From: Micromonospora sp. WMMD1082
GTDB taxonomy: Bacteria > Actinomycetota > Actinomycetes > Mycobacteriales > Micromonosporaceae
Length of the DNA: 64,000 nt
Direction: 5' to 3'
Assembly: GCF_029626175.1 (NCBI RefSeq)
Contig: NZ_JARUBM010000002.1
Span: forward strand, 5,039,001-5,103,000
In this document: piece by piece, positions 13,977 through 17,273 of the stretch
How the letters are laid out: each line of letters begins with the position of its first letter
Position numbering within the stretch: position 1 is the first letter of the stretch
Made by a program: the position numbers and the translations under genes
Notes under the pieces: model-generated
Seen by the model: only the letters and a program-made list of their open reading frames with translations
Database searches by the model: none
What the model was told of the DNA's origin: nothing

Positions 13977-15221
13977 ATGGTCGCCCATCGACTGACGCGG
14001 GACGAGGCCCGCCGGATCGCGATCCACGCGCAGTTGCTCGCCGTACCGCGTCCGACCGATCTCGTGGGTGTCGTCGAGCGCCTGACGATGGTGCAGCTCG
14101 ACCCGACGGCGGCCATCGCACCGAGCGCCGATCTCGTGCTGTGGAGCCGGCTCGGCCCGGCCTACCACCCCGCGCACCTGACCACGGCGATCGAGGTCGA
14201 GCGGACCCTGGTCGAGACGGTCGCCTACGTCCGGCCGCCACGCGACCTGCCCGCCGTGCTCGCCGAGGCGCGCGCCGCGACCCATCCGGGCGCCCGGGAG
14301 TGGATCGAGCGCAACGAGTCGTTCCGCCGGGACATCCTGGCGCTGCTGGCGGAGCGGGGGCCGCTGCTGTCCCGGGACATCCCCGACACCAGCGTGGTGC
14401 CGTGGCCGTCGAGCGGCTGGACCAACAACCGCAACGTCACCAAGATGCTCGAACTGCTGGCCCGGCAGGGCCAGGTGGCGATCTCCGGCCGTAAGAGGCT
14501 GTCGGGAAACCCCGGGGCGAGCGAGGCGGAGTCCAGGCGGCGATCCGGCAAGGCGGAGATTGGTTCGGATACCGGTGTTGTATCCGGGCCGATCTCCAAC
14601 GCCGCCGGTCGTCGGCTGGGCCCGCCGCAGCCGTCGCGAGGTTTCCCGACAGCCTCTATGGGACGGCAGCGCTACTGGGACCTTCCCGAGCGGGTGTACG
14701 CCGTCGAGCTGCCCGACCTCGACCCGGACGAGGCGGTGCGGCGGCGCAACGAGCGCCGGCTCGCCGCGTTGGGCATCGCCCGCTCCGGCGGCACCGTGAC
14801 CCCGGGTGAGTCGCCGTACGTCGGCGACGCGGGAGAGGAGGCCGTGGTCGAGGGCGTGCCCGGGACCTGGCGGGTCGATCCGGCGTACCTCGGGCTGCCG
14901 TTCGAGGGGCGCACCGCGCTGCTGTCGCCGTTCGACCGGTTGATCCATGATCGGGTACGCACCGAGCAGTTGTTCGGCTTCGAGTACTTCCTGGAGATGT
15001 ACAAGCCTCGGGACAAGCGCCGGTGGGGCTACTTCGCCCTACCCGTACTCCATCATGATCGGCTCGTCGGCAAGCTGGACGCGACCGCCGACCGCAAGGC
15101 GGGCACCCTCGTGGTCAACGCCCTGCACGAGGACGTCCCCTTCACCCGGGAGATGACCGCCGACGTCGACGCCGAGATCGAGAACCTCGCCACCTGGCTC
15201 GGCCTGACGACCACCCGCTGA
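13977..15221 (+). CDS. YcaQ/AlkZ-like winged-helix DNA glycosylase, with in-frame insertion
   Basis: Member of the HTH_42 (PF06224) family, whose YcaQ and AlkZ members unhook interstrand crosslinks or alkylated bases (family knowledge). The MVQLDPTA segment near residue 35 gives the Q-hydrophobic-D motif of the YcaQ subgroup. The C-terminal half has LLSPFDRLIHDR and YFALPVLHHDRLVGKLD, typical of the family. The 414-residue protein is longer than expected because about 55 codons are inserted between VAISGR and GRQRYWDLPERVY, two blocks that are normally adjacent. The insert is a palindromic element (14494-14658) read through without a stop. ATG 13977 is probably leaderless. Whether the product is active is unknown. 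Confidence 0.85.
   Translation: MVAHRLTRDEARRIAIHAQLLAVPRPTDLVGVVERLTMVQLDPTAAIAPSADLVLWSRLGPAYHPAHLTTAIEVERTLVETVAYVRPPRDLPAVLAEARAATHPGAREWIERNESFRRDILALLAERGPLLSRDIPDTSVVPWPSSGWTNNRNVTKMLELLARQGQVAISGRKRLSGNPGASEAESRRRSGKAEIGSDTGVVSGPISNAAGRRLGPPQPSRGFPTASMGRQRYWDLPERVYAVELPDLDPDEAVRRRNERRLAALGIARSGGTVTPGESPYVGDAGEEAVVEGVPGTWRVDPAYLGLPFEGRTALLSPFDRLIHDRVRTEQLFGFEYFLEMYKPRDKRRWGYFALPVLHHDRLVGKLDATADRKAGTLVVNALHEDVPFTREMTADVDAEIENLATWLGLTTTR
14494..14658. mobile_element. In-frame palindromic element (MITE-like)
   Basis: Perfect 18-bp terminal inverted repeats at 14494-14511 and 14640-14657 (outer end AGAGGCTGTCGGGAAACC) bound the element. TA at 14492-14493 and again at 14657-14658 looks like a two-base target duplication, as made by IS630/mariner-type transposases. 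Removing one TA plus 163 bp restores a continuous protein; 165 bp equals exactly 55 codons, so the reading frame is kept. Inside, 14555-14572 pairs with 14580-14597 around a seven-base loop; all three non-Watson-Crick positions are T against G, so they pair as G-U in RNA of this strand. It codes for no transposase. Confidence 0.8.
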
Positions 15222-15587: not shown

Positions 15588-15618
15588 TTGACATCCTCTC
15601 CGCCCTAAAGGACGGAGA
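15588..15618 (-). ncRNA. IS right-end hairpin and probable 3' end of a TnpB guide (omega) RNA
   Basis: Ten-base arms 15597-15606 and 15609-15618 with one wobble, just past the tnpB stop codon, followed on the minus strand by GGATGTCAA. In studied IS200/IS605 elements the RNA covering the tnpB 3' end and right end acts as the scaffold, and bases just outside the element are the guide. Here those would begin near 15587 (minus strand, ACTTCTGGCCAGATGG). The RNA itself is inferred. Confidence 0.5.
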
Positions 15619-16834
15619 TTCCCTCCACGCTGCGCGTGGACCGCGCGGTGTCCGGGTGGGTTCCCGCTTCGTTGCGCGCCGCTGGCACGGATGCCGGTCT
15701 TACGTGCGCTCTACGGGCGTTGAAGTCCGCCTGTCCGGCGGCCTTGACGTTCTTCGCGGCGTTGACGTCCCGGTCGTGGGCTGCTCCACAGGGGCAGTCC
15801 CACGCTCGGACGTTCAGCGCCATCTTCTCGTTGACCCGTCCACAGTCGGAGCACATCCGGGTGGACGGGAAGAACCGATCCACCCGGCCGAAGGTCCGCC
15901 CCCAGCGGGCGGCCTTGTACTCCAACATGCCGGTGAAACTCGCCCACCCCGCATCGTGCACGGACTTCGCCAGCCGGGTCCGGCTGAGACCGACGACGCA
16001 CAGGTCCTCGACATAGATCGCTTGGTTGTCGCGAACGATGCTCGTGGACAGTTTGTGCTGCCAGTCCCGCCGGGTGTCGGCCACGTGGGTGTGTGCCCTG
16101 GCGACCTTCACGACGGCTTTCTTGCGGCGGTTGCTGCCCCGCTGTTTGCGGGACAGATCCTGCTGCAACCGCTTGAGCTTGCGGGCCGCGCGGCGCAGGA
16201 ACTTCGGCGCGGCCACCTTCGTGCCGTCGGACATGACCGCGAAGTGGGTCAGCCCGAGGTCGATCCCGATCTCGGATTCGACCGGCGGTAACGCCGCGTC
16301 GGTCACCTGCACGACGAACGAGGCGAAGTACCGCCCGGCCGCGTCCCGGATCACCGTGACCGAGCTGGCCTCGGACGGCAGGCTCCGCGACCACCGGACC
16401 GGCACCTCGCCGATCTTCGGCAGCCGCAGTCGTCCGTTGTCGAGCACCTTGAACCGGGAGTTCTTCGTGAACCGGATGGCCTGCCGGTTGTCCTTGCGCG
16501 ACCGGAACCGGGGCGGCGCCAGCTTGCGGCCCTTGCGCTTGCCCGTGACCGAGGCGAAGAAGTTGCGGTACGCCACGTTCAGATCGGCCAAGGCCTGCTG
16601 GAGCACTACCGACGACACCTCGCCCAGCCAAGCCCGTTCCGGGGTCGTCTTGGCCTGCGTGATGATCCGCTTCGACAGTTCGGCGTCCGAGACGTACTTC
16701 TCGCCCGCCTCGCGTGCTTGTTGACGCAGACGCAGCCCGTCGTTGAACACCACGCGAGCGCACCCGAACGACCGGGCCAGCGTTTCGCGCTGAGCGGTGT
16801 CCGGGTAGAGCCGGTAGTTGTAACGGAGCTGCAC
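15605..16834 (-). CDS. tnpB: TnpB, RNA-guided nuclease of IS200/IS605 element
   Basis: A 409-residue TnpB, ancestor-type relative of Cas12. An N-terminal helix-turn-helix/beta region (YNYRLYPDTAQRETL) precedes the RuvC-like domain, whose three acidic residues are all present: D192 in GIDLGLTHF, E276 in YVEDL and D356 in DRDVNAAKN. A four-cysteine zinc finger (C328, C331, C347, C349) lies between the second and third motif. Length and motifs indicate a full, catalytically competent protein rather than a fragment. The start is GTG 16834; the divergent tnpA begins 23 bp away, so both promoters share the 22-bp gap. The 3' end probably doubles as guide-RNA scaffold. Confidence 0.95.
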   Translation of the reverse strand: MQLRYNYRLYPDTAQRETLARSFGCARVVFNDGLRLRQQAREAGEKYVSDAELSKRIITQAKTTPERAWLGEVSSVVLQQALADLNVAYRNFFASVTGKRKGRKLAPPRFRSRKDNRQAIRFTKNSRFKVLDNGRLRLPKIGEVPVRWSRSLPSEASSVTVIRDAAGRYFASFVVQVTDAALPPVESEIGIDLGLTHFAVMSDGTKVAAPKFLRRAARKLKRLQQDLSRKQRGSNRRKKAVVKVARAHTHVADTRRDWQHKLSTSIVRDNQAIYVEDLCVVGLSRTRLAKSVHDAGWASFTGMLEYKAARWGRTFGRVDRFFPSTRMCSDCGRVNEKMALNVRAWDCPCGAAHDRDVNAAKNVKAAGQADFNARRAHVRPASVPAARNEAGTHPDTARSTRSVEGISVL

Positions 16835-16856
16835 GACGCCACTGTATCATTGGTTT

Positions 16857-17273
16857 ATGGCTGACCTCGAAGGCATCCGCACTGGTAGGCACTGCGTTTT
16901 TGCTCTGCATGCTCACTTGGTCTTCGTCACGAAGTTTCGGCACAGGGTGTTCAGCGACCGGCACCTCGCCCGAATGGAGGAGATCGTGCGGGACGTGTGC
17001 CGGGACTTCGAGACCGAACTGGTCGAGTTCAACGGGGAGAACAGCCACGTCCACCTGCTCGTCAACTTCCCGCCCAAGGTCGCCCTCGCCAAGCTGGTCA
17101 ACTCGCTTAAGGGTGTGTCGTCCCGTCGGCTCCGCCAAGAGTTCCCCGACCTACGGCGGCACTACTACCGGGCCAACAAGCTTTGGTCGGGCTCGTACTT
17201 CGCAGGCTCCGTCGGCGGCGCCCCGCTCTCGATTGTGAAGCAGTACATCGAGCAGCAGAACCGCCCGGTCTAA
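16857..17273 (+). CDS. tnpA: TnpA, Y1 HUH transposase of IS200/IS605 element
   Basis: A 138-residue single-strand DNA transposase. The metal-binding HUH motif is HVH (H64, H66) in NSHVHLLV, and the single catalytic tyrosine is Y130 in VKQYIEQQ; length is normal for the Y1 family. The N-terminal FALHAHLVFVTKFRHRVF and the WSGSYFAGSVGGAP block are typical of the group. ATG 16857 is preceded by TATCAT at 16845-16850, probably its -10 element. With tnpB facing the other way it makes a complete autonomous element. No frameshift or lost catalytic residue is visible. Confidence 0.95.
   Translation: MADLEGIRTGRHCVFALHAHLVFVTKFRHRVFSDRHLARMEEIVRDVCRDFETELVEFNGENSHVHLLVNFPPKVALAKLVNSLKGVSSRRLRQEFPDLRRHYYRANKLWSGSYFAGSVGGAPLSIVKQYIEQQNRPV

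Follow-up and report, generated by a model that had tools for sequence, protein, structure and literature searches.

The 55-codon insert in the AlkZ-like DNA glycosylase gene of the window (the whole 64,000-nt stretch of Micromonospora sp. WMMD1082 DNA that was analysed) is a palindromic, non-autonomous MITE, one copy of a family whose members are built of two modules, a conserved hairpin core of about 113 nt and ends of about 18 bp that vary between near-identical cores. According to the reading favoured here, to which we assign a probability of roughly 0.73 on the strength of sequence comparison, an IS5-family transposase acting in trans would recognise the ends of the MITE and would have inserted the element at a TAA site in the AlkZ-like gene, and one strand of the core would be selected to fold as RNA, in a transcript of the element that exists alone or within a neighbouring mRNA. 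The new part is the occurrence of differing ends on like cores together with the folding of one strand.

The insert in the AlkZ-like gene and its empty sites

The host open reading frame matches the Pfam family PF06224 (AlkZ-like) with 116 bits (cut-off 25.9), and an identical reading frame was obtained with our own codon-usage gene caller (Table 1). The insert is bordered by perfect 18-bp terminal inverted repeats (AGAGGCTGTCGGGAAACC), as had been claimed in an earlier sequence-only reading, whereas the length of 163 bp and the TA duplication given there are better read as 162 bp and a TNA-type duplication. Element and duplication together amount to 165 bp or 55 codons with a stop-free frame, so that the AlkZ-like protein has gained 55 residues and has not been cut, in agreement with the previous description of 55 codons added without a stop inside a YcaQ/AlkZ-like gene. 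Of the six frames of this copy, four are open, and the other two have a stop only at an edge; the insertion is in frame through its length and GC-richness, not through evident design.

Table 1. Features of the AlkZ-like gene, its insert and the downstream region (positions in the window)
Feature	Position	Strand	Basis
AlkZ-like (YcaQ-type) DNA glycosylase gene including the 55-codon insert, 414 aa	13977..15221	+	PF06224; own gene caller
Left target duplication TAA, TNA type	14492..14494	.	TNA triplets of type-A copies; empty site in relatives
Palindromic MITE, 162 bp, GAGGC...GCCTC, core orientation +	14495..14656	+	Span of exact end pairs across the genus
Left arm, perfect 18-bp terminal inverted repeat; under the TNA reading, 14494 is part of the duplication	14494..14511	+	
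Right arm, perfect 18-bp terminal inverted repeat	14640..14657	-	
Right target duplication, at present TAT, one substitution from TAA; Lys in the four closest relatives, Met here	14657..14659	.	
Hairpin core, about 113 nt, occurring elsewhere on other ends	14518..14630	+	Covariance model R1; 140 aligned cores
Inner hairpin, 18-bp stem, outer part covarying between copies, apex GGATAC-CGGTGTT-GTATCC	14555..14597	+	
TnpB-like protein, OrfB_IS605 and Cas12f1-like TNB	15605..16834	-	
Y1 transposase	16857..17273	+	

Relatives of the AlkZ-like protein are present in 117 of 121 genomes, many of them distant. Thirty relative loci were fetched, one of which was the window gene itself, leaving 29 for comparison. 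The insert is missing from all 29, which have no residue in the columns of residues 176-226, and 28 of them also align at the DNA level across the joined flanks. In the four closest relatives (86-89% identity) the empty site reads CG(T/G/C)AAGGG, from which it follows that the target was probably TAA and that the right duplication has changed to TAT. In view of the TNA triplets of the type-A copies described below, a duplication of 3 bp is a better reading of the junctions than TA. The open frame through the insert would also be expected if the 55 residues were a native domain of the protein, but this explanation is refuted by the empty sites, element copies occur elsewhere, and it can practically be dismissed. 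Both checks proposed in the sequence-only reading had the outcome expected of a mobile insert: the 29 fetched homologues lack the 55 residues, and copies of the element are carried by the own genome and by other genomes of the genus and the family.

Codon changes in the host gene that are private to the own genome comprise 6 silent and 7 replacement changes, compared with 70 silent and 26 replacement changes in the same count pooled over the four relatives (p 0.06), a hint of relaxed constraint on the host gene and not a proof. Just downstream of this gene (15605-17273) lies an apparently intact IS200/IS605-type pair.

Copies, target duplications and a probable partner insertion sequence

The element family is found at four places in the own genome, namely as two whole copies with type-A ends, the end type of the AlkZ insert, a third copy whose ends are different (7263520) and a 62-bp half. 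The latter (L004/L047, G000:C2:7000558-7000619) is the left half of a type-A element and stops abruptly inside the core. A search of 160 genus genomes for exact type-A end pairs located 10 places in 6 genomes, always with a span of 162 bp at an allowed range of 147-175; as exact ends were required, diverged type-A copies were missed by this search. Identical TNA triplets (TGA, TCA or TTA) flank 10 of 20 type-A copies on both sides, while TNA is present on one side only in nine, including the AlkZ copy, and on neither side in one. For GG-type ends, TA is found on both sides in 32 of 55 copies. Matches by DNA search occur in at least 92 of 201 genomes, with no more than 4 candidates scored per genome. 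The family thus displays the properties by which MITEs are recognised: terminal inverted repeats, target duplications and empty sites, dispersed copies, the lack of a transposase gene and, for type A, a partner insertion sequence (IS).

Some copies show rearrangements. Two derivatives, L294 (G045:C4:3647828-3647922, 95 bp) and L295 (G075:C1:2922326-2922376, 51 bp), have intact type-D ends and a deleted middle, as expected from hairpin-driven central deletion. At L291 (G120:C1:1804877-1805208), two elements are arranged head to tail and share TAG at the joint, where the end of one element seems to have served as the target of the next.

The own genome contains a 1026-bp IS (C2:3960274-3961299) with the ends AGAGACTGTCGGGTAAC and a TAA duplication. 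It encodes a 300-aa transposase with DUF4096 and DDE_Tnp_1, which is assigned to the IS5 family (NF033580, 216 bits; cut-off 110). The ends of the AlkZ element equal those of this IS at 15 of 17 positions (16 of 18 in direct comparison), and for the ISs with type-A-like ends in the own genome and in genome G228, 1-2 mismatches in 17 were found. The transposase in G228 is 93% identical and its IS has the same ends, and this genome carries five exact type-A MITEs. The likeness between the AlkZ element and the own-genome IS is confined to the ends, as a comparison of the interiors gave no similarity better than E 0.24.

Within the IS5 family, subgroup IS1031 uses TNA targets and subgroup IS427 uses TA targets. 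The MITE family resembles IS5-family ISs in its type-A ends and target triplets as well as in the CTAG/TA targets of other end types, whereas the element has neither a transposase gene nor an interior match to the own-genome IS. The partner of the AlkZ element is likely an IS5-family transposase and not an IS630-type one, and the IS described above would have mobilised the element in trans. An IS630-type transposase with the same ends had been predicted from the sequence, and TA at the junctions would suit an IS630/Tc1-mariner MITE; however, the TNA triplets of the type-A copies and the IS5-family membership of the same-genome IS with these ends speak against such an origin, which is very improbable.

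For other end types, an IS5-family IS of 1027-1035 bp in genome G045 has ends close to, but not equal to, those of the local MITE (type D), and its transposase is 26% identical to that of the type-A partner. A search with the end pattern of types B-E in 12 genomes, nine of which had matches, yielded element-sized and shorter pairs and no IS-sized pair. In the own genome, one end like that of the type-A partner lies beside a partial transposase-like frame (L046, G000:C2:3779600-3782200), which is probably an IS remnant.

Similar cores on differing ends

Positions 26-141 of the query, corresponding to the core, were matched in many genomes whose outer 25 bp or so were not. A pattern derived from the apex detected at least 120 stretches in Micromonospora, Asanoa, Rugosimonospora, Longispora, Virgisporangium, Catenuloplanes and others, and nhmmer on the collected loci returned 236 rows at 173 places, representing 144 unique copies. 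The ends could be measured in 135 of these copies; most elements measure 160-171 bp, a length that comprises some duplicated bases, and the longer values look like chance extension. The end sequences include GAGRCTGTCGGGAAAC (TNA target), GGGCCTGTGTCGAAG, GGGCGTGTGTCAAAG and GGGCCTGTTTCATAAGG (CTAG target), plus others.

Cores and ends were compared in 117 copies whose ends were good. Of the 1593 core pairs with an identity of at least 88%, 774 sit in different end clusters, the 13 clusters being rough, as register errors split at least one of them. For instance, the cores of L083 and L023 (types A and B) are 97% identical, while their ends, aligned in the best register, agree at 11 of 18 positions. 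Different end types also occur side by side in single genomes, with two in the own genome and at least four in M. musae MS1-9 (L149, L143, L125, L093). Core identity and end identity are correlated (Spearman 0.39), and this correlation and the partial identity of type A and B ends make gradual divergence of the ends possible beside outright exchange. Exchange of ends may nevertheless have been part of the process, as judged from such pairs of cores.

MITEs are usually regarded as shrunken copies of one parent IS. The finding of nearly one and the same core with several end types suggests a parasite with changing transposase partners, in which one core would be able to ride different IS5 transposases. 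A further-reaching interpretation sees in the core a mobile gene for a structured RNA with a function of its own, comparable to SINE-like parasites except that it moves as DNA, which would spread through the family by repeatedly swapping transposase-recognition ends and thereby outlive any single IS. We regard this interpretation as tentative and rather doubtful; if true, the core RNA would serve the element, for example by the recruitment or sparing of host factors, or would have a role at the 3' ends of genes.

Using the covariance model R1 (E 1e-8, strict filters, up to 12 candidates per genome), the core was detected in at least 143 of 300 Micromonosporaceae genomes and in 18 of 44 genera. 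In a class-wide draw, R1 detected it in at least 3 of 296 genomes, which are the own genome and two genomes of another family; because of the limited number of candidates per genome, these counts are lower bounds. The relatives from the other family (L317, L318 and L320 in G442 and G465) have a similar stem but differ in the apical loop, their ends are of the CTAGGAGGG type, and they likewise fold better on the core strand. An apex-pattern match in Streptomyces sp. E2N166 (L127) was taken as a chance hit, as the long hairpin is absent from this stretch. Plasmids searched with a type-D copy and phages searched with the AlkZ copy gave no match, and searches of window positions 14300-14800 and of 14 copy-bearing loci yielded no Rfam match at the gathering score. 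A description of the family was not found in the titles and abstract openings of literature on palindromic repeats and MITEs of actinobacteria and Micromonosporaceae, a scope outside of which most subscription journals lie.

Strand-specific pairing and genomic location of the copies

The AlkZ element as a whole is predicted to fold with -131 kcal/mol (z -11.9) in the sense and with -106 kcal/mol (z -8.7) in the antisense orientation, and none of 200 shuffled sequences folded as well. This fold contains 6 G-U pairs and 26 unpaired nt. The inner hairpin forms 18 uninterrupted pairs with three G-U pairs as the sole exceptions to Watson-Crick pairing, which bears out the initial observation that all its mismatches are G-U pairs. 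R1 scores the core of this copy at 119 bits, the copy itself being part of the seed alignment.

The proposal that selection acts on the folded strand, which had been derived from this hairpin, is upheld by strand-specific pairing in an alignment of 140 near-complete cores (4 of the 144 copies were dropped). The consensus energy is -62.6 for the cores as oriented and -36.1 for the complement. A G-U pair on one strand corresponds to A-C on the other, so that a surplus of G-U marks one strand. The pair cells of the alignment comprise 4937 Watson-Crick, 768 G-U, 34 A-C and 258 other combinations. Apex pairs are biased because 103 of the 140 cores were collected via the apex pattern; the ratio of G-U to A-C is 293:28 after removal of the apex pairs and of five pairs with a G-U consensus, 41:9 in the 37 cores that did not come from the apex pattern, and 83:14 in 32 cores with less than 85% identity. 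Considering 32 pairs individually, G-U is commoner at 25 and A-C at 4. Parsimony on a tree yielded 121 changes from Watson-Crick to G-U, 28 from Watson-Crick to A-C and 83 double Watson-Crick changes, whereas the same kinds of change in unpaired columns gave 86:104 (Fisher p 9e-12 against 121:28). In a 30-sequence alignment, double changes that keep pairing were found at 21 of 40 pairs. Compensatory changes thus keep the core paired across the 140 copies, and the G-U surplus argues for selection on one strand to fold. The selected molecule would be RNA rather than single-stranded DNA, RNA being the simplest carrier. With strand-specific covariation in 140 copies, the question whether a MITE hairpin acts as RNA becomes directly testable.

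The orientation of the cores relative to replication was analysed under the assumption of a circular chromosome with an opposite terminus. As most chromosomes do not start at dnaA according to PF08299, the located dnaA positions were used. R1 copies were present in 19 of 22 genomes. The analysis covered 44 places in 16 genomes, after exclusion of G045 and G091, whose sequences are divided among large contigs, of G061 and of weak or second-strand matches. They represent 43 independent sites, two of which are near the terminus; at the other 41, the core strand is leading in 12 and lagging in 29 cases (p 0.012, in a post hoc and second orientation test). This bias is a lead, and it leaves room for a cause at the DNA level. 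Without any selection on RNA, the palindrome might be kept by DNA processes alone, such as arm homogenisation, hairpin-templated repair or strand-biased mutation, and the 95- and 51-bp derivatives that have lost their middle also suggest hairpin-driven DNA events. However, homogenisation would erase G-U and A-C sites equally, the unpaired columns have no surplus of G-U-making changes, and, since the complement comes to lie on the lagging template under this bias, deamination would be expected to raise A-C and not G-U. DNA processes alone are therefore an unlikely explanation, and selection for folding as RNA is preferred.

Enough flanking sequence for a survey of neighbouring genes was available for 117 of the 144 copies (27 were dropped), representing 110 independent sites, with genes called by our own codon-usage caller and not curated. 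The neighbouring genes are convergent at 51 sites, divergent at 8, in tandem with the core in sense at 28 and in tandem with the core in antisense at 23. At 90 of the 110 sites a gene 3' end is located within 60 nt, with the gene in sense only at 30, in antisense only at 28 and on both sides at 32, and stop codons often lie at the element edge. Such positions near 3' ends and between convergent genes may simply be harmless to land in, or the element may act there as a transcript end that can be spread. The core shows no orientation bias relative to genes of at least 60 aa when one copy per site is counted (28 vs 23; 30 vs 28 in the 3'-end set), and this random orientation fits poorly with selection by read-through from neighbours. 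An initial count of coding flanks (22 sense vs 2 antisense) had seemed to indicate orientation selection; this was rejected, as the count was inflated by very short gene calls at edge stop codons and by orthologous sites.

Several described repeat families share part of these properties. Correia/NEMIS, ERIC and RUP are MITEs of about 100-200 bp with terminal inverted repeats, TA termini and stable RNA stem-loops according to the part of the source drawn on here (PMC2229807), and to this extent they resemble the present family in size, inverted repeats, terminal TA and stem-loops. The present family may differ in the near-identical core on several end types, and it differs in its quantified strand-specific pairing and IS5-family partner. 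Rickettsia palindromic elements (RPEs) are described in the portions of the sources used as palindromic, with a long hairpin, and inserted in frame in protein genes (PMC2229807, PMC10969869). By these described properties, the AlkZ insert is alike in being a palindrome with a long hairpin that is inserted in frame in a protein gene. In contrast to RPEs, the present family has few in-frame genic copies, most of its copies being located at the 3' ends of genes, and it shows target duplications and a matching IS.

The Rickettsia-like behaviour proposed earlier accordingly holds for the mobile palindrome and for its frame at this site, but in-frame insertion is not a habit of the family, as only one of the 110 sites has a clearly in-frame genic copy. 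Coding sequence extends across both edges at three sites, L001 (the window copy), L154 and L160, of which only L001 is in frame. A palindrome shaped for in-frame insertion and tolerated as a peptide would be in line with the AlkZ copy, with a length of 165 bp that is divisible by three, and with one orthologous site in three genomes (L016, L115 and L020; Pfam on L016) at which the element, read in the same frame, lengthens an RpiR-family protein at its C-terminus. A copy in Asanoa (L157) may be a further in-frame case, in antisense. However, the insertion measured for type B-E copies at CTAG targets, such as L027, amounts to 166 bp, which is not a multiple of three, the AlkZ copy would be open in most frames anyway, and some of the changes among the RpiR copies are paired, structure-keeping replacements as judged by eye. 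Adaptation to proteins is thus decidedly improbable, and the IS5-mobilised MITE remains the preferred reading. L154 and L160 seem to interrupt genes, the former by a frame shift across the element and the latter by a stop inside it.
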